This document shows positions 1,184 to 60,012 of a stretch of DNA of 60,587 nt, one piece after another. The DNA lies in contig LT635916.1 of NCBI GenBank assembly GCA_900128565.1, positions 1-60,587 of the forward strand. The letters run 5' to 3'. The position numbers and the translations under genes were made by a program. Under the pieces are notes generated by a model. That model was not told where the DNA came from. It did not search any database and saw nothing but the letters and a program-made list of their open reading frames with translations. Within the stretch, counting starts at the first letter, position 1. Each line of letters opens with the position of its first letter. The stretch is from Stramenopiles sp. TOSAG23-6. Its lineage: Eukaryota > Sar.

Positions 1184-1859
1184 CTTTTTAAACTTTAAAA
1201 AAATGTATTGTGAATATATATGTTATAAGAAGGTATTGTGAGTATTTTTTTTGAGAATAATATGAGTTGTTTGTAAGAATAGAGTTGGGAAGTTGGGAAG
1301 AGGGGAAGGGTATAGTGATAAATTAAAGAACAATTGAGAATGGCACAAAAGAGAGAGAAATGGAAGAAAGTGTGTAGAATTTTTGGGACAATTTTGAGGA
1401 ATTATTATATCCAATCGAAATTATGTGAAAAGTGAGTGAACTTACCTTTAAATCACTTTAAATTACGAAGGCTCTACTGATACAAGTACGGTGAAAGAAA
1501 AGGAAGAGAAACAAAAGGACAAGAGACAGCAACGGAGAGGAAGAGAGAGAAAGAAAGAAAAGAGAGAGGAAGCGAGCGCGAATTAAAAAACATGACTATC
1601 AAAAATTGACATCAAAAAATACAAAACATCAAAATTCGCTGTTATTTTTCTAAAATCCCCCGCGCAAATAAAGTTANAATTTCGTGTTTTTGATTTGAAT
1701 GACGTCATGACTCAACATCTGTTGTTATCACTAAAAGACTATCTCGTTATATTGAGGTAGCAATCAATACGAATACAATCGGATTCTGTATTTTCTTTGG
1801 TAAGGTGGAATTAAAGTAGTTTGTGCAGACGTCCGAGAGATCCAATACTCTCCAGGATA
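1184..1859. other. Divergent intergenic region with a polypurine tract
   Basis: These 676 bp lie between two divergently transcribed genes and show no convincing ORF. From about 1490 to 1580 the + strand is almost pure A/G (repeated GAAAGA and GAGAGA), and a second purine-rich stretch runs from about 1270 to 1380. A bZIP-type composite site lies at 1700-1714. One undetermined base is at 1677. Confidence 0.6.
1700..1714. promoter_or_regulatory. CRE/AP-1 composite bZIP site
   Basis: TGACGTCA (1700-1707), a perfect 8-bp CRE palindrome, is directly followed by TGACTCA (1708-1714), the AP-1/TRE half-site. It lies about 145 bp upstream of the CYP51 start. The match to bZIP consensus sites is exact; use in this organism is inferred. 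Confidence 0.4.
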
Positions 1860-3926
1860 ATGTCATACGCATCAATGGATGCAACAGTATCTGCTATCAT
1901 CCTTGGGGTAGCCATTTTGCTTGCAGCGTTACAACCATCTCAGTGGTTGACAATGATTTGTTGTTTACTTTGTCCGTGCGCTTTTGTTTTATTTTACCGC
2001 ATTAATTTTGGTTCATCAAATGCGAAAGCTCCACCACAATTCAAAACTGGCTTGCCTTTAATAGGTCCATTTATTGCATTTGCAAAAGACCCCCTTGGAA
2101 CAGTTTCACGTGCACGTTCTCAGCTTGGTAACGTGTTTACTATTCGCATGTTTCATATGCAACAAACGTTTCTAGTTGGAAGTGCGGCACATAAAGCTTT
2201 CTTTGAAGCAAGCGACGAAGAACTAGACCAAGCTCCAGTATACCGTTTTATGGTACCAGTATTTGGGAAAGGCGTTGTATATGATGCGCCTCTAACTGTT
2301 CGCCGTCAACAATTTCGAATGTTGGGAAATTCCCTCCGTCCCTCTGGTCTTCGACGTTATCCTGAAGTTATTGCTGCTGAGGCTCGTGACTTTTTTTCGA
2401 CATCATATGGCCCATCTGCAGATGTAGATTTACTCCATTCTATGGCAGATTTGACTATTCTTACAGCAAGTGCAACTCTCCATGGTCCAGATGTACGACA
2501 GAAGTTGCACAAACAAGTTTCTCATTTATTTCGACAAATGGACGAAGGAATATCACCGTTGAGTATAGTTATGCCATATCTTCCAACCCCTGCTCACCGT
2601 CGACGTGATGCTGCTCACCGTAAAATGGTTAAACTCTTTGCTGGAGTCATTCGTGATCGTCGGAAAGCTGAACGTCTTGCAGCAAAAACTACTTCAAATA
2701 AAACATCACCACCTACTGATATTCTTCACAAACTAATTCATGCAAAGTATAAAGATGGCACTAGAGTTCCTGGTCATGAAATTGCAGGGATGTTGATTGC
2801 TGCTCTCTTTGCGGGACAACACACATCTTCTGTAACTGTTACTTGGACAATTTTGTTTTTATTGGATAATCACAGAAAACACGAAAAAGAAAATATAGAA
2901 GGAAAAAGTTGGTTGTCCAAAGTATTGGATGAATTAAATGAAGTTGAAACTTTAGATAATTTATTTTGTAATGGTAAAGTTACTCATGATGATGTCAGTA
3001 AAATGAAAATACTTCATGCTTGTGTCAAAGAATCTATTCGAATGTTCCCTCCTTTAATATTTCTCATGCGTCGTGTTGTGAAAAAACCTTTGGATGTTGA
3101 AGGTTTTAAAGTTCCAGTTGGACATAATGTCATGTATGTTTTATGTTTTTTCAATTTCGAGTTTTTTTTTCGTGCGAAATTTTGTACCTAAAGATTTTTT
3201 TTTTGAAATATTTTTCCAAAATATATGGTCTCTAATGCTGTTGCTCAAAGGTTACCTGAAGTATTCGAAAACCCAAACACGTGGCTTCCAGGAAGATGGC
3301 TTGATTTTGATATTCGAACACTTCCACCGTATTCATTCATTGGTTTTGGAGCTGGGATTCATACCTGTATGGGTGAAAGTTTTGCATTTATGCAGATAAA
3401 GACAATACTTGCTGTTTTACTCACTACGTATGATATGAAATTGACAGGTCCATTACCACCAGCTAGTTATGACGCTATGGTCGTGATGCCACGGGGGCCA
3501 AATATAGTCAAATTTCGTCGTAAATCTGGGATTCTACAGTCATCTGTTGGCGTTTCAGAGAAAGAGAAGACTTCTTTGAAGACAGTTACTACAAAATCTC
3601 AAGGAAAAAAAAAATCAAACATATTAAAGACACTACCTTCATCTAACTTTGAGAAAAATGAAAATTCTGATCCAAATGAAGAGTTTGGTCTAGACAGTTT
3701 CACTATTGAAGAAATTTCAAAACATTCAAAACGAGATGATTTGTGGATAATTGTGAAGGATCGTGTCTATGACGTCACACAATTTTTACCTGTTCATCAA
3801 GGTGGAGATTCGCTTCTTAAATGGGGTGGGAAAGATGCCACTGTCGGTGTCTTTGGACCCCAACATCCTTCCACAGTCCCAACCCTATTAAAACGATATT
3901 TAATTGGAAAAGTTGATAGAAACTAA
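1860..3926 (+). CDS. CYP51: Sterol 14-alpha demethylase (CYP51) fused to a C-terminal cytochrome b5 domain
   Basis: The spliced product is 657 aa (1860-3133 joined to 3227-3926). CYP51 removes the 14-alpha methyl group of sterol precursors at the ER. An N-terminal hydrophobic anchor (about residues 10-45) precedes the P450 domain. CYP51 hallmarks are GKGVVYDAP in the substrate-recognition region, the I-helix FAGQHTSS (about residue 320) and the heme-Cys loop FGAGIHTCMGE (about residue 465). After a Lys/Ser-rich linker, residues about 579-657 form a cytochrome b5 fold with axial-His motifs HQGG (usual HPGG) and QHPS. A fused b5 could supply an electron locally. The start is the first in-frame ATG; the upstream TTG was not used. 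A 93-bp introner-like intron splits the codon for the Met after GHNV, and the join aligns without a gap to animal CYP51 as I recall it (GHQVCVSPTVNQRL type). Confidence 0.93.
3134..3226 (+). mobile_element. Introner-like intron, copy 1 (CYP51), GT...AT ends
   Basis: This 93-bp phase-2 intron begins GTATGTTTTATG and ends CCAAAATATAT before exon GGTCTCT. It shares with the copies at 8075 and 27775 the start, a TTTCGTGCGAAA near-palindrome, TTTTGTACCTAA and a TTTGAAATATTTTTCC 3' arm. Unspliced, the frame hits a stop at 3189-3191. The AG at 3192-3193 would lead into an in-frame TGA. The next AG (3249-3250) is in frame but would delete eight residues of a region conserved in CYP51. The GT...AT boundary is therefore the best fit. 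It can slide by one to two bases because of short direct repeats (AT and G). Confidence 0.85.
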
Positions 3927-6601: not shown

Positions 6602-9225
6602 ATGTTAGTTTTCAGAAAAAAAGCGAAATACTCAGATAAAAAACTTCTTTTCTTTCTCAGCATTGGTATAATGCCTCTAGGTTGGGCTCTTTGTCTATTT
6701 CTCTCTTGCAAATTGTTTGTGCTAACACATTCTATCACTCCTACAGATCCTACAGTGGTCAGTGTTGACGTGGCTGTTGATGGAAAGACTTATATTTTTG
6801 AAGTAAACCCTACCATTTCACCTGATGAAGTGTCCGAAAGTGCACGGAGTTGGTGTGAAAGTCATGGTATATCTCAATCTGCTGATCTAAATACATGCGC
6901 ACAAGCCATTTCCAATAGAGTGCAAAATATTAATGCGTCGCCTGATATAAATTCGTCGATAGAAGCAAAGAACCTGCTTGCTGACGCAATGAAGCTTCAC
7001 CGAACAGGTCACTTGAGTAAAGCCATTGAAGTATATAGTCAACTATTAAAGTTGGATCCATTAAATGGTGATGCCTTTCATTTGCTTGGTGGTGCATTTC
7101 AAGGAAATGGTGATGTTATAGAAGCAATTGAAGCATTTCAAGGGGCTTTACGTGTCGCTCCCAAAGTTCCACAGTTCAGCGTTTCCTTGGCAAAAATACT
7201 ACTTTTTGATGCACCAAGTTTGGAACCCTCAAAACTATTAGATATTAGTGGACACCACACAATAAATGAATGGATTGAATCTGTATTACGTTCTGCTTTA
7301 AACCACGGTGCAATGAAAAGTGAAATATCCGGAAATGATCTTGATGCACTAGGGTTTTTAATGCACTTTCTCAATCGTGAAAATCGTCCCATGGACGCAC
7401 TAAAAGCATTTAACAAGTGGAATACTCTTACTACTCTCGATCCAAAAGCAATAAGCAATGCACTACACCTCGATAACTTTCTTAATAAAAATGCAAAGGC
7501 ATATGCTGAATATATAATGGAGGCAGGCTTAGCTTTACACCGTACAGAGTCACTAGAAGATGCTGTTAATATGTTTGAGGCTGCAGCAGCATTTACACCA
7601 AATTCTTCTCGACCATGGATGAATGCTGGTGTTGTCCTTGTTGCATTGAAGCAACATGATAATGCTGGAAAAAGATTTGTTAGAGCTGTGAATGTACAGA
7701 CTAGTTTAGATTGGAATGCTCTACAAAATTGGCAAGGTCACACATATAATAAACATCAAATGACTCAAACATATAATACTACTACGAAAGCAAAAAAGAA
7801 TAAATTTCGTTGGATTTCTCGTCCATTAAACAAGAAAGTAATTGCGATATATTGCAATGAATATGGAAATAGTTGGTGGCCAAAATGGGGTTGGCGTACT
7901 GCTGGTGGTGGTGGCGGTGGTGGTAGTGGTGGTGGAATTGGTGGCTCAGAAGAAGCTGTTGTATTTCTATCTCGTCAATTAGCTAATATTGGGTATTGGG
8001 TAGAAGTGTATGCTAAACCACCTGATGATCAAATAGGTGAGGAACCTGATGGTAATGTTGTATGGTATCCACATGTATGTTTTATTTTTTTTCAATTTCC
8101 AATTTATTTTTCGTACGAAATTTTGTACCTAACAAAAAACATTTGAAATATTTTCCTACAATACATTCCGCTTTCTCTCTTCTTCCTATGGATGCACCTG
8201 ATATTTTTGTTTCATGGCGGTATGCTGTCTCTGCTACTTTGGGTCGATATGCAGGTTTATCATATATATGGCTTCAAGATATTGGTCGTGATATATCATC
8301 ACAGCTTACTTCGCGTATGATGAATTGTATTGATGGTGTGTTTGCTTTAAGCCATTTTCATGTATCACTATTAGATCCTGTTACACAACCAATGGCAGTG
8401 GTAACACCAAATGCACTCGATCCTGCATTTTTTCGAAATGGTAAAAATGCACCGTGGAAATTTATTTATGGAAGTAACCCTTCCAGAGGTCTTGAACAAT
8501 TACTTACGGTATGGCCAAAGATTCGAAATGGACTTGCTCATATGTCTAAAGAATGGAAGAAACACGCGGAAACAGAAAATATGTTGGATGAATATGAAGA
8601 CGGTGCAACACTTTTTGTATATTATGGATTTTCTGAAGCTTTTATGAAATGGGGTAAAGCATCAATGTCTAACTTTGATGAATGGCTTCGACATATGAAA
8701 ACATTATTAAAACAACCAGGTATTCGATATATTGGTATGGTAGGGCATGGGGAATTAGCCGAAGCATATGCAAGCAGTGGATTTTCCTTATATCCTACTT
8801 CTTTCCCTGAAACTGGTTGTGTATCATTAATGAAAGCACAAGCTATGGGCTCTATTCCGATTACTAGTAGATACACAAAATCAACTCTTCCAGAACTAAC
8901 TGCCGAATTTGACCTTGGACCACCTAGTAGACCTGGTAAAATATCTGATGATCCAGAATGGTTGAATGAGTGGGCTGCATCGGTCATTACAGCAGCTGGG
9001 GCTACAGGTGAGAGATTAATAAGTATGAAAAAACATAGAGAGAATATGATTCATTGGGCAAGAAAGAAATTTTTATGGTCACATGTTGCGCACCTATGGC
9101 ATCGATCGTTTCAGCGAGGTGGGGAGAGATTATTTGATGATAAAAAACAAAAGCCAAGATCTATATATTTTGATGAAGAAACTATTGATGCATCGCATGA
9201 AGCAGTATTTTCAAAGAAACAATGA
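6602..9225 (+). CDS. TPR-repeat glycosyltransferase (GT-B, group 1-like)
   Basis: The spliced product is 843 aa (6602-8074 joined to 8167-9225). An N-terminal signal-anchor (about residues 18-42) suggests a type II membrane protein of the secretory pathway. TPR units follow (about 120-205 and 300-370; for example AIEVYSQLLKLDPLNGDAFH). The glycosyltransferase region starts near residue 410 with KKVIAIYCNEYGNSWW, is interrupted by a Gly-rich loop (about 435-450), and continues through GGSEEAVVFLSRQL, DAPDIFVSWR and WKFIYGSNPSRGLEQLL to the donor-site region SLYPTSFPETGCVSLMKAQAMG, typical of retaining GT-B enzymes. The introner falls between codons 491 and 492 (phase 0); splicing at GT...AT gives YPH-SAFSLLPMDAPD in one open frame. 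Donor and acceptor sugars cannot be inferred. Confidence 0.85.
8075..8166 (+). mobile_element. Introner-like intron, copy 2 (TPR-glycosyltransferase), GT...AT ends
   Basis: This 92-bp phase-0 intron begins GTATGTTTTATT and ends CTACAATACAT. Its centre is the perfect palindrome TTTCGTACGAAA followed by TTTTGTACCTAAC, the latter resembling a branch-point sequence. The insert contains no AG at all. The first downstream AGs (ending 8254 and 8278) are both out of frame, so no ordinary GT-AG splice nearby keeps the protein open. Exon end CCACAT and intron end TACAT share ACAT, a possible target-site duplication. Confidence 0.85.
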
Positions 9226-26924: not shown

Positions 26925-28447
26925 ATGAGCAAGAAAAATATTGCGGTTATTGGAGGTGGTATTAGTGGATGCGTTTCTGCTGCTTTTCTTCGAATGAGTG
27001 GTCACAATGTCACAATATTTGAAAGTAATGCTTTCTTGGGTGGAAGAGCTATAACCCTTCAAACAAATTCTTTGGAAGCTAGTACAGAGAGTTGTTCATC
27101 AATATCGAATATTGATTTGGGTGCACAGTTTATTACGGTAACAGATCCACGCTTCAGGGTTTTCATTAATTCTCCTATAATGCAAGGGATACTTCAGCCA
27201 TGGAGTCAGAATTTTTCAGTTATTGGTTGTACCCCAGGTCATAGTGCAGTTTTACAACGAGACATTGCTCTCCAAAATTTCAAACTAGATGTTGCAAAAG
27301 AGTATAGCAATGATGAAGTTCAGCTGCAGCGTAATGCTCCAATGAATTTTTGTGGTTTTTTAGAATGTGAAAGAAAGGCAAAAAGTGTAGAGGAATCTAG
27401 AACAATCTATACTGGCCGTGATGGTGTTGGAAGTTTCTGTTATGACTTACTCAAACGAACAGGTGTTCATGATATTGTTAGTGATGCATATGTGAAATCT
27501 GTTGATTTTCAACAGTCTAGTCTGTCATGGTCTGTCATTACAGAAGAAAACAAATCAAATTCAAATTTTACAAAGTTAACTTGTGATAGAGAAAACTCTC
27601 ATGGTCCTTTTGACTTTTGTATTTTAGCCAATAATGATGCAAAGTTTGCTGCTGATACGATTGACAAGTTAATGTGTGATACAACAGATCATGAAATGCG
27701 TGATACACAAGTTCGTGAAATTATCAACGATTTCACTTTGAAACTTCGAGAATTGGAAAAGACAAATGTAAACTGTATGTTTTATTTTTTTTCAATTTCA
27801 ATTTTGTTTTCGTACGAAGTTTTGTACCTAACGGGTTTTTTTTTGAAATATTTTTCCAAAATACATGTTATTCACTTGTTGTTAAATTTGAAACTTTTTT
27901 AGATGTTCCATTTGATGCTGCTTCGCTTCAGGGTTCTTTAGCACTTTCATTTCTCTCTCGAGATTCATCCAAACCAGGTAAATATAATACATATGAAGGA
28001 TCTACAAATGTTGAAGAAGAATTCTGGGTTGTACAATCAACTCCTGAGTTTGCTGCTTGGATAGATTCATTTTTTCCCGACATTGAAATGGAAAAATCTC
28101 AAACTATCAAACTACAAAAAGCTGAAAAAGAATTATGGTCAGAATTTAAGCGTGTAATTGAACCAATTTTGAGAAAAGAAGCAACAAAATCGGATGGTTT
28201 TGACAATAAGATTAATTTCCCCAAACATTGTTTTGTTGAAACAAAAAGATGGGAAAAAGCATTCTTTGAAACACCAATGAAATTAAATGAAAATGATCAA
28301 AATAATAATGATGCTGTAACATTTAAACCATGGTGTCTTGCACTGGCGGCTGATTATTTAGGGGAAATACAATGTATACAGAGTGCGGCCCTCAGTGGTC
28401 TTATGTCGGCTGATAGAATAAATCAATGGATATCCTTAAATAAATAG
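26925..28447 (+). CDS. Renalase-like FAD-dependent amine oxidase
   Basis: The spliced product is 476 aa (26925-27774 joined to 27867-28447). Renalase-type flavoproteins have a p-hydroxybenzoate-hydroxylase fold and oxidise dihydro-NAD(P) isomers or amines. The N-terminus has IAVIGGGISGCVSAAFL with FESNAFLGGRA (FAD ADP-binding). After the intron, CYSLVVKFETF, LPFDAA-like VPFDAASLQGSL, SRDSSKPGKY, EEFWVVQSTPEFAAW and the C-terminal FAD-site region CLALAADYLGEIQCIQSAALSGLMSAD follow the bacterial renalase pattern. The introner sits in phase 1, and splicing at GT...AT gives NCYSLVVKF in frame. A GT-AG alternative ending at 27902 would also stay in frame but would delete 12 residues of this conserved strand. 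Confidence 0.85.
27775..27866 (+). mobile_element. Introner-like intron, copy 3 (renalase-like gene), GT...AT ends
   Basis: This 92-bp phase-1 intron runs from GTATGTTTTATT to CCAAAATACAT. It is nearly identical to copy 2 over the first 26 bp and to copy 1 over the 3' arm. The centre has TTCGTACGAA then GTTTTGTACCTAAC. The introner family ends at 27866, but the host gene also offers TTTTTTAG at 27901-27902, so a 128-bp GT-AG intron is possible. Family alignment and protein conservation favour the shorter form. Confidence 0.8.
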
Positions 28448-32037: not shown

Positions 32038-34437
32038 ATGGACAAATCTATTTCAACATTAGCATCTGGTGGAACCCATACCACATTCCATAATACTTCA
32101 TTCGGATGGAATGTAAAAGTATGCAAGGCACCAATACTAATAAATGACAAAACCAACGTGAGCTCGGAGTACTCGCAGAATTCCTGGTGCCGTGATCTTA
32201 ACCTAACTCTTCATGCGGAACAGCATCTACCTGAAGCGACATTTGGTGGAAATATTCTCGAGCTAAGACATTTATCCAGCGGCGTGCATATTAGATTCTG
32301 TGCAATTGAAGCATTGCGTTGTTGGGCATTACAAGGGTTAGATCCTGTTGCTCATTTATCAAAGAATGTGAAGCAATGTGAATGGGATTACACTTTTACT
32401 ACAGCGTACCCTGGTTCAACTTCAATGGAACAGGTGAATGCTTCACAAGTACCTGGAAGAAGCATATATTCGCGAACTGCAGTTGATCTTGCCCGTGGCC
32501 CTCCCATACTACGCAAACCATTGTGTAAGTGCGTCAGTGGTGGTGTCCCATTAGTCAAATTCAGAAACGATAGTGATGCATCCAAGTCCACAGTTTCTCT
32601 TTCTGATATTTCCCCAAGCGTACCCCCCTCTCCGCAGTGGAGACCAACTCACGAGAAAGTAGATATTAGAAATTTAATGAAAACACAACCCCATCCGCAA
32701 TTTCGAGAAATAATTGATTTGTGGCGGGACAATCTTGACCCTCAAAGCTTATGTTTTCTACGTGCAAAAGTATTTGTTTGTGCGAATTTTTGGGCTCTTT
32801 ACTTGCGTTGTTTTGCACGCGTAAATGGAGTTATGGCACGGGTGATCGATACTCGTTTTGTCTGCAAAGCGAGTGAACCAAATATAGTTTTGCGGGAGCG
32901 ATCATGGAGGGAAGGTAATTGGGAGAAATATGCTGGGAAGGATGCAGCTGCTTATTTAGACTTTTATGGTGGCGATGGTGATGAACTTGCTGTGCAGCGA
33001 CTACCTCTACTGCGTCCACCAATTACAGAAAAGTTGACTATTCCATCACATACTAAGACTTACATTGGTAGTGATTATACAGCAGTAGGTTCGAATTCAT
33101 ATCTTTGGAAGCGGAATTTACGATGTGAGTCAATTTCGGTTTGTCAATACAAGCCAATGACATTTGCTAATGAAACACATTCAATGTCTTTTGATAATAC
33201 CGATACCATGATAGTTGTTGTTACTGCAGAGGGTCGAGGAATAGAAATGTTGAATGCTGCTACTGGTGATACAAAATGGTCTAGGGCATCACCTGAAGGA
33301 ACAACGATTGTCTCTGCTGCTGTATACCCTTTTGCATCGTCGACACACGAGTGTAGGTTGGCATTAGGAACTGAGTGTGGTAAAGTATACTTGGTGAAAA
33401 CAAGTAGTGGCGAAGATATTTTACATTTTCCCGTCGTCCCAGAAAAGTCGACGAAACAAAATTCTAGGACTAAAACAGCAATGAATAGTTGGGTTGATAA
33501 TATTGCTTGGAGTTCCAATGGTGAGAGTATTGTTGCTGCTGCTGGGCGAATCGTAGTAGCTTACAACATACAAAATCGTGTAGTTGTTGGGAAAAAGTGT
33601 GTCACTGGAACTATTCACGCACTTGGCTTTATAGAAAATACCGTAATTATTGCATCGTATGGTGGGATAACGTTTTTTGATACTGTTCCTACCATTGATA
33701 AAAGCATCATTGTAAACGAGGTAAATGGTTTTAATAGTATTGAATTGATTCCTGTTACACTAGAAATTGGTGCAACAGCCGTGCTTTCAATATCCGTGTC
33801 TTCCGACGGTCGGTATCTTGCCGCGGGTTGTTTAGATAATCGAGTTCGCATATTTGAAATTGAATCCACAGAAAAGGATACATTTGTAAAATGTAAAACA
33901 TCAAGTACTCGCGATTGGGTAGGTATTACTGGCCCCGTCACTTCTCTTTCATGGAGTTGCAAAAGTAGATGGCTTGCTGCTTGTGGTGGTGATACCTTAT
34001 TAGTAATCCCAGGTGATTTACCTTCTGGTGAACCTCCAATAGTATGCATACCCCCAAGACAGAAAACTTCATCATGTGGAGAAGTACAAAAAAGGTTTAA
34101 AGCAATTTCATGGGCACCAAGCGTTCAAGTGGAATCTCTTTTGGCTGCAGTAGAGTCGAATAATGGCCGAGCATATATATTCAATGTTTTATACCGGGAC
34201 GATGGTGTACCGCGAGTTGCTAATCCTATCTACGCAATTGAATGCCCAGAAAATAGTATTTATTCTGGTACTACTTCATCATTGCAAAATCTTGCTTTCT
34301 CATCAATGTTTTCAATAGATCATCCCACGCTCATAATAAGTCATGGTGACGTTATTGCGAGTACCTGTGTGCCTTCTAAAATATTAGAAACAGCCAATGA
34401 ATGTGAACAAAGTGAGAGAAAACATGAAACTTTATGA
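32038..34437 (+). CDS. TIP41-like domain fused to a WD40 propeller
   Basis: 799 aa, single exon. Residues about 15-310 follow the TIP41/TIPRL family, regulators of PP2A-type phosphatases: LPEATFGGNILELRHLSSG, RFCAIEALRCW, CEWDYTFTTAYPGS, then LYLRCFARVNGVMARVIDTR and PNIVLRERSWREGNWE match in order. A Ser/Pro-rich insertion (about 185-215) splits the domain. Residues about 370-790 form a WD40-type propeller (SMSFDNTDTMIVVVTAEGRG, NIAWSSNGESIVAAAGR, SISVSSDGRYLAAGCLDNRV, SLSWSCKSRWLAACGGDTLL). TIP41 proteins are normally stand-alone (about 270-350 aa), so the fusion is unusual; the propeller could recruit substrates or other phosphatase factors (inference). I first considered the WD40 nucleoporin ALADIN, which does not explain the N-terminus. 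Confidence 0.85.
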   Translation: MDKSISTLASGGTHTTFHNTSFGWNVKVCKAPILINDKTNVSSEYSQNSWCRDLNLTLHAEQHLPEATFGGNILELRHLSSGVHIRFCAIEALRCWALQGLDPVAHLSKNVKQCEWDYTFTTAYPGSTSMEQVNASQVPGRSIYSRTAVDLARGPPILRKPLCKCVSGGVPLVKFRNDSDASKSTVSLSDISPSVPPSPQWRPTHEKVDIRNLMKTQPHPQFREIIDLWRDNLDPQSLCFLRAKVFVCANFWALYLRCFARVNGVMARVIDTRFVCKASEPNIVLRERSWREGNWEKYAGKDAAAYLDFYGGDGDELAVQRLPLLRPPITEKLTIPSHTKTYIGSDYTAVGSNSYLWKRNLRCESISVCQYKPMTFANETHSMSFDNTDTMIVVVTAEGRGIEMLNAATGDTKWSRASPEGTTIVSAAVYPFASSTHECRLALGTECGKVYLVKTSSGEDILHFPVVPEKSTKQNSRTKTAMNSWVDNIAWSSNGESIVAAAGRIVVAYNIQNRVVVGKKCVTGTIHALGFIENTVIIASYGGITFFDTVPTIDKSIIVNEVNGFNSIELIPVTLEIGATAVLSISVSSDGRYLAAGCLDNRVRIFEIESTEKDTFVKCKTSSTRDWVGITGPVTSLSWSCKSRWLAACGGDTLLVIPGDLPSGEPPIVCIPPRQKTSSCGEVQKRFKAISWAPSVQVESLLAAVESNNGRAYIFNVLYRDDGVPRVANPIYAIECPENSIYSGTTSSLQNLAFSSMFSIDHPTLIISHGDVIASTCVPSKILETANECEQSERKHETL

Positions 34438-57585: not shown

Positions 57586-60012
57586 ATGATGAATAGGGGA
57601 AGTGACACACATCGTCGCAGGCGAAGCCGTAGTCATAGTCGCAGTAGAAGTCGTGATCGAAATCGTCGTCGTGATCATGAAGGCTCGTATAAAAAGTCGC
57701 GTGAAGATGCTTGGGCAAGCGGTGGTGGTGACAGATATTCTAAATCACGTGGTGGTGACAGATACTCTAATTCGAGATATGATGATAGATATTCTCCTGG
57801 GGGCGACAGATACGGTGACAGATACTCTAATTCGAGATATGATGACAGATATTCTCGTGGGGACAGATATTCTAGTCCACGTGGTGGTGACAGATATTCT
57901 AGCTCACGCCGAAATGACTATCATAGAGAGCTAAAACATGGCGGCTACGACTCTCGCGCTGGTGAGCGTAAAGGGCCAGAACCACAAGGTCCTGTGCGGC
58001 GTCAAAATAATCCACAGTGGGACTTTGGAATTCCCTTTAAAAATATTTCTGAAAAGGGGAGCGATGCAAAGGAACGCTTTCGTATTGATGGTCGACCACT
58101 AGTCAAATCTGAAATGAATGGAACATTGGAAACTCCTAATGCTACAACTGAGTCTAACCAATCTGGGGGTTGGGCTATTCGACCAGATGTCGAATATGCT
58201 AGGTATAAAGCTGTTGAAAGGTTACGTCGTATTTTACAAGATACTTCAAGGAAGCGTTTAGGAATTAAAGTGCCACGTTTAGCTTTTGAGCGTTGGCTAT
58301 TGGAACAAGTAGCTCGTCCATACCACCCTTCTTCAGGATGCGATCCTTGCTTACGTCATCCTCAGTCTTGTTGGGATACTGATGTAATTCGTAGAGAACT
58401 TCTTGCAGAGTTACCTTGTCGAATATTTGGTTTTAGACAGAAGAAAAATCCAACTCGATTGTATAAAAACTTAAAACAATGGGTTGATGCTGGTTGTAGG
58501 TGGATTGATAAATTGAGCAAATCTCGAGATACTGTGGCGTCTTCACAAACTTGCAAGAATGTAAATAGTAGTGGTTCTGTTCCTATGAATAAATCGGATA
58601 TATCTGCCGATAATGTTGTAGAAAAATATAATACTACTAGTCAAGTGGAGGATAAAGATGAGAAATTTGTTCCAGTGACCCGTCCTTCAGTTGATAGTTC
58701 TGGGGGGGATAAATTACAACGACATTCCTTTGAAGGTGTGTCTGTAGAAGCTCATCATATTTCTGTGTCTGATAATGATGGAATTCTTATTGCTTGTACA
58801 AAGGCAAAAACATTCCTTGATAATGCCGACGTATTTCTTCAAGATTGTAACGTCCAAGGTATACATAGAAAGAGGGGCGACTTCACTGACCCTCAACTTA
58901 TTGAAGACCAACTCAAAATTTTACGAGATGAATGTGCTCCCTTGTTTAATAAAATTGTACTTCCTGATGTCGATTTTGTGTGCAAAACACTTAGTGATGC
59001 TGCTGTTCGTGTTGTAACCGACCTTGCTTCTTTATCAGCAAAAGAACAAGTGGGAGAGTCCAAAATTGAAATCATTGAAGGTGGTCGACATAGAGGCAGT
59101 TTAGAAGGATTAGTTCGTGTAAGTTTCAAAGACGATTATTTAGAATTGAATTTGCAACATCTTACGAAACTTCGAACTCTCTACACCATACATAATGCAA
59201 CTCTTTCAACAATGGCTAATGATGTAACAGCTGACACACAAAACGTTGTTCAGTTGTCTTCAAATACAAAAGATGGGGTTGAGAAAGAAGAAGAATCTAA
59301 TGGAAGTATTGAAAAAACGTACAATCCTGATACAATTCGCTTGTTAGACCCAGTACATTTAGGATATAATTCGAATTGTGACCCAGACTTGAAACGTTTC
59401 CCTGATGCACTGTACTCTTTAGCGCGGCGATATCATACTTTTATTGGCAGTGATTCAGGAAATATGCATGCTGCTGCAAGTGAGGGTACATTCAGGTGTA
59501 TGATTGATGAATTTGAAGTTTGTATGGAATCGTATGGATCTCCTTTTAATTGTTTCTTTCAACGTTTTGGATCTGCATTTCCTGATACGGATGGACCATT
59601 TGGATCAGTAGGTTCATTTTTTGATTATACTCCAGTGGAAGGTTCTTTTGAATGTGGACCACCATACGTTCAAGAAACGATGGATCGAATGGCTGAGCGA
59701 ATAGATGTTCTATTAGAACAGTCACAGAGACCATTATCATTTATTGTATTTGTACCCGATTGGTATGATCCCCCATTGCCAGCAAAAATTACGATGGAAA
59801 AAAGTAAATTTTTGAGAGCGGATCTTGTAGCACCAGGAAATGGGCATACTTATGTTGTTGGTTTACAGCATAAACCTTTAGCACAAGGACGCAAGCGATA
59901 TTACAAAGTACCTCATGGAACTCACCTTTACTGGATGCAAAATGATGCTGGGTTTGCAAAGTGGCCACCAACAAAAGAAAAACTTGCTAAATTACAAAAA
60001 GCTCTTGGATAA
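57586..60012 (+). CDS. PCIF1: PCIF1/CAPAM-like cap m6Am methyltransferase homologue with altered catalytic motif
   Basis: 808 aa, single exon. An N-terminal Arg/Ser/Asp-rich region (about 1-150) has RS dipeptides and repeated GDRYS-SRYDDRYS units, as in nuclear RNA-processing proteins. Residues about 200-310 match the PCIF1 helical domain, and about 440-808 the methyltransferase core: MHAAASEGTFRCMIDEFEV, SPFNCFFQRFGSAFPDTDG, SFIVFVPDWYDPPLPAKI, LQHKPL, and the ending LYWMQNDAGFAKWPPT, all close to animal PCIF1 as I recall it. The catalytic motif NPPF is here GPPY (G691-Y694): the Asn that holds the target amino group is replaced by Gly, so activity is doubtful. Fly PCIF1 is a known inactive homologue. 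Two adjacent ATGs (57586, 57589) could start it. No N-terminal WW domain is obvious. Confidence 0.92.
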   Translation: MMNRGSDTHRRRRSRSHSRSRSRDRNRRRDHEGSYKKSREDAWASGGGDRYSKSRGGDRYSNSRYDDRYSPGGDRYGDRYSNSRYDDRYSRGDRYSSPRGGDRYSSSRRNDYHRELKHGGYDSRAGERKGPEPQGPVRRQNNPQWDFGIPFKNISEKGSDAKERFRIDGRPLVKSEMNGTLETPNATTESNQSGGWAIRPDVEYARYKAVERLRRILQDTSRKRLGIKVPRLAFERWLLEQVARPYHPSSGCDPCLRHPQSCWDTDVIRRELLAELPCRIFGFRQKKNPTRLYKNLKQWVDAGCRWIDKLSKSRDTVASSQTCKNVNSSGSVPMNKSDISADNVVEKYNTTSQVEDKDEKFVPVTRPSVDSSGGDKLQRHSFEGVSVEAHHISVSDNDGILIACTKAKTFLDNADVFLQDCNVQGIHRKRGDFTDPQLIEDQLKILRDECAPLFNKIVLPDVDFVCKTLSDAAVRVVTDLASLSAKEQVGESKIEIIEGGRHRGSLEGLVRVSFKDDYLELNLQHLTKLRTLYTIHNATLSTMANDVTADTQNVVQLSSNTKDGVEKEEESNGSIEKTYNPDTIRLLDPVHLGYNSNCDPDLKRFPDALYSLARRYHTFIGSDSGNMHAAASEGTFRCMIDEFEVCMESYGSPFNCFFQRFGSAFPDTDGPFGSVGSFFDYTPVEGSFECGPPYVQETMDRMAERIDVLLEQSQRPLSFIVFVPDWYDPPLPAKITMEKSKFLRADLVAPGNGHTYVVGLQHKPLAQGRKRYYKVPHGTHLYWMQNDAGFAKWPPTKEKLAKLQKALG

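Follow-up and report, generated by a model that had tools for sequence, protein, structure and literature searches.

A large family of introners, mostly without a 3' AG and probably spliced, in an uncultured stramenopile

Few features of nuclear introns are as constant as the AG acceptor, which in yeast closes introns that open with a GUAUGU 5' splice site and contain a CUAAC branch motif. Introners that derive from DNA transposons carry target duplications and co-opted splice sites and have GY/AG sites (PMC9860276). The introner elements of Amoebophrya, an organism in which the U1 small nuclear RNA (snRNA) was undetected, have largely non-canonical and variable borders, inverted repeats of 8-20 nt and direct repeats of 3-5 nt (PMC7789003). 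In the tunicate Fritillaria borealis, introns ending in AU or AC have been tied to duplicated, divergent U2AF paralogues (PMC13326754), and in diplonemids, three of which have (G)/GTATG 5' sites, sources resembling miniature inverted-repeat transposable elements have been suggested for the non-canonical introns (PMC12621601). Among DNA transposons, ISL2EU elements make a 2-bp AT target duplication in the target A|AT|T (PMC4482050). Here we describe a large introner family, mostly lacking AG and probably spliced, that came to light through three near-identical inserts in a contig of 60,587 nucleotides from Stramenopiles sp. TOSAG23-6 (LT635916.1; the whole contig is referred to as the window).

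The three inserts lie on the + strand at 3134..3226 (copy 1, 93 bp), 8075..8166 (copy 2, 92 bp) and 27775..27866 (copy 3, 92 bp), in a CYP51-cytochrome b5 gene, a TPR-repeat gene and an FAD/NAD-binding gene, where they occupy phases 2, 0 and 1, respectively. All three begin with GTATGTTTTAT and have a CGTRCG-type centre followed by GTACCTAA; copies 2 and 3 terminate in AATACAT and copy 1 in ATATAT. In copy 1, the putative 5' splice site GTATGT is at 3134..3139 (+), the putative branch-point motif CCTAA at 3187..3191 (+), and the terminal AT at 3225..3226 (+), this last being the right copy of a target duplication whose left copy lies at 3132-3133. The dinucleotides flanking copy 3, CT and AT, form an imperfect duplication. 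Exact excision of copies 1, 2 and 3 leaves open frames of 672, 843 and 478 aa. The initial annotation, which had described these inserts with their shared ends and centre, the restored frames, and GT...AT ends without an AG acceptor, is borne out on each of these points. It erred in calling them a family of three, which is the number in the window only, where scanning either strand for the motif brought up no further copy. The six matches in the window to the 5' 11-mer alone, at no more than one mismatch, are insignificant against an expectation of 3.2.

The family is far larger in the assembly to which the window belongs, an incomplete one of 8.03 Mb in 408 contigs. An 18-base core, AAATTTTGTACCTAACRA, has 1161 exact matches there against 0 for a reversed control, and the pattern GTATGTTTTATN{70,86}ACAT has 251 against 4 for its reversal. 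A DNA search with copy 1 returned 1282 first-look candidates; 40 were scored, and all 40 matched, 37 of them starting at base 1 of copy 1. These counts include duplicated contigs, which inflates the repeat numbers. Contigs C2, C4 and C37 are palindromic, C13 and C14 are a near-identical pair and C75 is palindromic or near-duplicate, all probably amplification chimaeras; because of such contigs, which are expected of an amplified single-cell genome, there must be fewer distinct loci than raw matches. Our estimate of the total is many hundreds of copies, up to about a thousand. Carriage by viruses was considered and rejected, as the core has no exact match in IMG/VR.

Borders and flanks were determined in 104 parsed copies, using a parser that demanded G[TC]A[TC]GT at the 5' end, a loosely defined branch motif and a threshold score at the 3' end; 99 copies were kept after spans outside 60-140 bp had been removed, and of the 95 that were free of N and shorter than 125 bp, 77 were hand-picked for alignment. 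Elements in the parsed sample are 82-135 bp long, with a median of 97. Since the pattern that supplied 30 of the first loci combined GTATGTTTTAT with ACAT, end counts from this sample are biased towards AT. The dinucleotide on the left flank equals the terminal dinucleotide of the insert in 83 of the 99 copies, which exceeds the maximum of 75 (mean 66.6) seen in 20,000 permutations and establishes a 2-bp target duplication. Most of the matching pairs are AT/AT (74), and the informative ones are the others: GT/GT in four copies, TT/TT in three, and CT/CT and GG/GG in one each. AT accounts for about 10% of the dinucleotides a short way upstream of the inserts, and the target context is Y|AT|R, with C or T in 65% at position -3 and G in 46% or A in 21% at position +1. 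The ends of the element are weakly inverted over about 4 bp (GTAT...ATAC). Relative to the host gene, the sense frame is the better one in 90 of the 99 copies and the antisense frame in a single copy, with eight ties. The earlier suggestion of mobile introns that multiplied in unrelated genes is thus upheld by copy number, target duplication and orientation alike.

Excision is also exact at the protein level. Of the 104 copies, 63 are decidable, having a single open frame upstream and a single one downstream, and in 54 of these the reading frame is kept when GTATGT...TAC is removed together with the following two bases; the 54 comprise 24 in phase 0, 16 in phase 2 and 14 in phase 1. A first parse, in which the 3' end was misplaced in many copies, gave the expected frame in 14 of 48, and an earlier re-anchored one in 47 of 57. 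The CYP51 join, NVM|VSNAVAQRLPEVF (NVM|VSNAV), shows no gap against three homologues (P0002, P0003 and P0023); the initial annotation had described it as gap-free against the conserved GHxVxVSxxVxQRL region. Equally gap-free against homologues are the kinesin join DSL|GGTSK, two ABCC joins, the second join of PRP4, the join LNH|Y of a SETD3-like gene and the ClpB join (G-VP); a one-residue gap occurs 6-8 residues downstream of the join in one PRP4 match and in the SETD3 match. A RecQ-type query consisted of the post-join exon only and carries no information on its join. The kinesin case is a tandem, in which two introners stand head to tail in the motor domain with zero exon bases between them (contig C76, L096:2521-2704), looking as though one had integrated at the other's border.

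AG is rare in the family as a whole and not in the window copies alone. Throughout the assembly, the 3' motif AAATATTTTTYCAMAATAC (n = 781) is followed by AT in 638 cases, by AG in 16 and by other dinucleotides in 127, a count that is free of the AT-leaning bias of the parsed sample. AG is not the rule at introner 3' ends, nor is it common there. Two places where an acceptor might hide were considered and rejected: an upstream AG, because in 71 of the 99 copies none follows the branch motif within the insert, and an AG in the downstream exon, which homologues rule out wherever their alignment spans the join. Copies that do not end in AT behave in the same way, in that 7 of the 9 whose frame is decidable need the identical excision, GTATGT...TAC plus two bases. 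As an instance of the minority end, a GC...AG introner is found in a SETD3-like gene (contig C26, L035:1252-1343).

Set beside the described systems, the family has a mixture of familiar and unfamiliar traits. It resembles the surveyed introners (PMC9860276) in that high-copy, near-identical introns occur in unrelated genes with a target duplication that partly supplies the splice site and leaves the mRNA length mostly unchanged; it differs in that the duplication gives AT and seldom AG (638 against 16 of 781), so that these 3' ends fall outside the GY...AG pattern. Like the Amoebophrya elements (PMC7789003), it has borders that are non-canonical and marked by direct repeats. In place of variable borders and repeats of 3-5 nt, however, it has uniform GTATGT...TAC+AT borders, inverted ends of about 4 bp and a 2-bp duplication, and an alignment of 77 copies yields no pairs for an end-joining hairpin. 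AU-ending introns are a point in common with Fritillaria borealis (PMC13326754), where 95% of introns depart from GT/AG, whereas here an AG-less mobile family exists beside GT-AG introns. The AT duplication recalls ISL2EU (PMC4482050), from which the Y|AT|R target sets the family apart. Finally, the 5' splice site and branch motif are those of yeast-type introns, without the AG end.

We think it likely that a short, non-autonomous DNA transposon gave rise to the inserts, which are its copies and act as introners, and that they are spliced out with an end that is usually AU. As the flanks show, the element inserts at AT in coding sequence and duplicates these 2 bp. In sense RNA, its left end would then offer GUAUGU as 5' splice site, the CUAAC some 36 nt short of its right end would serve as branch point, and the spliceosome would cut out GUAUGU...UAC along with the right copy of the dinucleotide, leaving an intron that usually ends in AU and an mRNA returned to its pre-insertion state. 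The RNA-level removal would be the work of the host's major spliceosome, which would tolerate non-AG 3' sites on introners while keeping AG elsewhere.

The signals on which this proposal depends are retained in diverged copies. In the 26 most diverged of the 77 aligned copies, identity is 94% for GTATGT, 98% for CCTAAC, 96% for ATATTTT and 91% for TAC, compared with 44% for the hexamer that follows the branch motif and 74% for the CGTACG centre, the conservation of the motifs being partly built in by the parser's 5', branch and 3' requirements. The branch motif CTAAC lies about 36 nt before the right end of the element. At position +2, 100 of the 104 parsed copies have T and the other 4 have C, these being the only bases that the parser admitted. 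Variants of the 5' end (GTACGT/GTATGT) and of the centre (CGTACG/CATACG) among parsed copies resemble CpG decay and might be used to rank copies by age. Ordinary introns appear in the same assembly: contig C13 has a GTAAGT...ACTAAC...CAG intron in a gene adjoining an MFS gene with four introners, and the Cpn60 (HSP60-type) gene of contig C380 has three GTAAGT...TAG introns. A scan for GTAAGT...AG gave 14 raw matches, of which the Cpn60 introns and the C13 intron were those examined. A search with zf-CCCH, aimed at U2AF1-like genes, found eight places in the assembly.

The alternative that comes closest is removal from RNA in a different register, with the intron starting at the left AT and ending at the constant AC. 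A perfect AT duplication, which is present in 74 of the 99 copies, gives identical mRNA in both registers, and TAC is strongly conserved, at the 91% noted above for diverged copies. The first PRP4 join fits this AT...AC register slightly better, for it reads Ser where 3 of 4 close homologues have Ala, as retention of the right copy would give. In the other three of the four informative genes, the protein favours the left copy: removal in the AT...AC register would turn the tandem kinesin join from DSLGG into DSHGG, with H in place of L, would make the SETD3 join LNQ and not LNH, and would give ClpB an I in place of a conserved V. Where the left and right dinucleotides are unlike, AT is retained on the right only in 11 copies and on the left only in 3, a split in the direction expected of GT...AT from a small sample. 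Minor-class introns of the U12 type have a 5' splice site RTATCCTT and a branch-to-end spacing shorter than the roughly 36 nt observed, and the 5' ends here are GTATGT or GTACGT, the form that the parser required, with GTATGTTTTAT in the window copies. We therefore prefer GT...AT, on the strength of the 11:3 split and of the three proteins in four that keep the left copy, and regard AT...AC as unlikely.

A further question is how the 3' end would be chosen if not by AG. We consider it possible, but on the doubtful side, that the 3' splice site is defined by the element's own end, UUUUYCAMAAUAC after CUAAC, plus a fixed two nucleotides, whatever the duplicated dinucleotide happens to be (AU, GU, UU, CU or even AG). 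This fixed-distance definition is prompted by the GT/GT, TT/TT and CT/CT copies, by the frames of 7 of 9 non-AT copies and by the rarity of AG (16 of 781). It would imply, and we put this forward just as tentatively, that one spliceosome uses two 3'-site grammars, AG for ordinary introns and the element end plus duplication for introners.

Removal without a spliceosome, as proposed for the nonconventional introns of euglenids, would have RNA pairing bring the ends together. Folds of single copies do pair both ends (z = -2.01, -1.44 and -1.15), which suggested an end-joining hairpin. RNAalifold, however, predicted zero pairs from the 77-copy alignment; with no predicted pair common to these copies, the hairpin is unsupported, and the presence and retention of spliceosomal 5' and branch motifs also speak against such a mechanism, which we judge very unlikely. 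An Rfam scan of the window gave no match at the gathering threshold.

Slightly less likely again is excision at the DNA level, in which germline inserts would be removed from the expressed genome in the manner of the internal eliminated sequences of ciliates. The inserts are indeed short, AT-rich and precise, with a 2-bp duplication. The main argument against this explanation is the sense bias, as excision by symmetric ends would be blind to orientation and the copies are sense by 90 to 1. In addition, motifs resembling a 5' splice site and a branch point are kept in diverged copies, and the near-identical contigs C13 and C14 share the same five inserts, a weak point given that they may be assembly duplicates. 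That the inserts are simply retained and the host genes broken would fit the absence of RNA support for removal, and is scarcely credible in view of the conserved exons on both sides, the gap-free joins in PRP4, kinesin and CYP51, and the many hundreds of copies.

Several observations count against splicing of transposon-derived introners as proposed above, in addition to the first PRP4 join and the small sample behind the 11:3 split. Nine of the 63 decidable copies failed the frame test, one of them a mis-parse with negative length. The PHIS-type transposase domain PF13359, as would be expected for an ISL2EU-derived element, has 0 matches in the incomplete assembly. No transcript of the species was recognised, the sole near-identical proteins being its own gene models among the 120 best matches listed for each of three protein searches. 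The U6 snRNA had no match in the partial assembly, nor in any control genome, which makes the result uninformative. As to the ordinary introns, contig C380 is presumed to belong to the host and may be a contaminant; C13 itself bears introners.

The source organism is probably a MAST-3 stramenopile of the Tara Oceans single-cell set, by label GSMAST32. A EukProt gene model with this label matches the CYP51 piece at 95% identity, with 74% of the query covered, and in the alignment the two are identical apart from gaps and read-throughs made by the model; the same label gives the first match for the kinesin and PRP4 queries. These gene models are themselves instructive. Four introner sites were checked, in the genes for CYP51, kinesin and PRP4, and the models are wrong at every one: they translate into the introner (NVM-YVLCFFNFE, DSL-VCFHHEFQIC, SGT-CMFYFFSIS and DHM-YVFTMKS) and then jump to the downstream exon, the jump in CYP51 being a GT...AG in the sequence, and the models (P0001, P0121 and P0241) lack exon pieces that homologues keep. 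Standard gene prediction thus misreads introner-bearing genes of a tiny, uncultured marine protist. MAST-3A and MAST-3F have been sequenced, and complete proteins matching MAST-3F were too few to train a gene finder; that genome paper has the word 'intron' twice and 'splice' not at all (PMC5778133).

Surveys that start from annotated GY...AG introns would miss such families, as the available gene models show by reading into the introner at each of the four checked sites, and similar families may hide in some poorly annotated protist genomes. A literature search, largely without subscription papers, found no report of MAST-3 introners or of AG-less introns in MAST-3. The combination of a uniform, high-copy introner, GTATGT and CTAAC signals and a non-AG end formed by the target duplication, in a genome with GT-AG introns, is apparently unreported. 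The initial annotation went too far in presenting the missing acceptor as previously undescribed, given the non-canonical introners of Amoebophrya (PMC7789003) and the AU-ending introns of Fritillaria (PMC13326754). A transposon appears to have multiplied here to hundreds or more AG-less introns beside GT-AG introns, so that what it costs to break the AG rule, and how it is done, can be tested within one cell.

The three host genes in the window are all on the + strand. The gene for CYP51 fused to cytochrome b5 spans 1821..3926 as the open reading frames (ORFs) flanking copy 1, with a provisional start; the C-terminal cytochrome b5 domain is common to the best 22 homologues among the matches listed. 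The TPR-repeat protein is encoded at 6602..9225 by the ORFs flanking copy 2; Pfam recognises TPR in the first of these ORFs and gives no match for the second, and TPR-glycosyltransferase is the label of the initial annotation. The third gene, at 26925..28447 with an end calculated from the 478-aa spliced frame, encodes an FAD/NAD(P)-binding oxidoreductase; its FAD/NAD-binding domain is found, and its likeness to renalase is the label of the initial annotation. Elsewhere in the window, 57586-60012 encodes a PCIF1 WW-domain protein, PCIF1 being the cap-adjacent N6,2'-O-dimethyladenosine (m6Am) methyltransferase. N6-methyladenosine (m6A) changes in snRNA have been linked with the non-canonical splicing of the tunicate (PMC13326754). 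A single ORF at 32038-34437 combines a TIP41-like domain with WD40 repeats that follow it.
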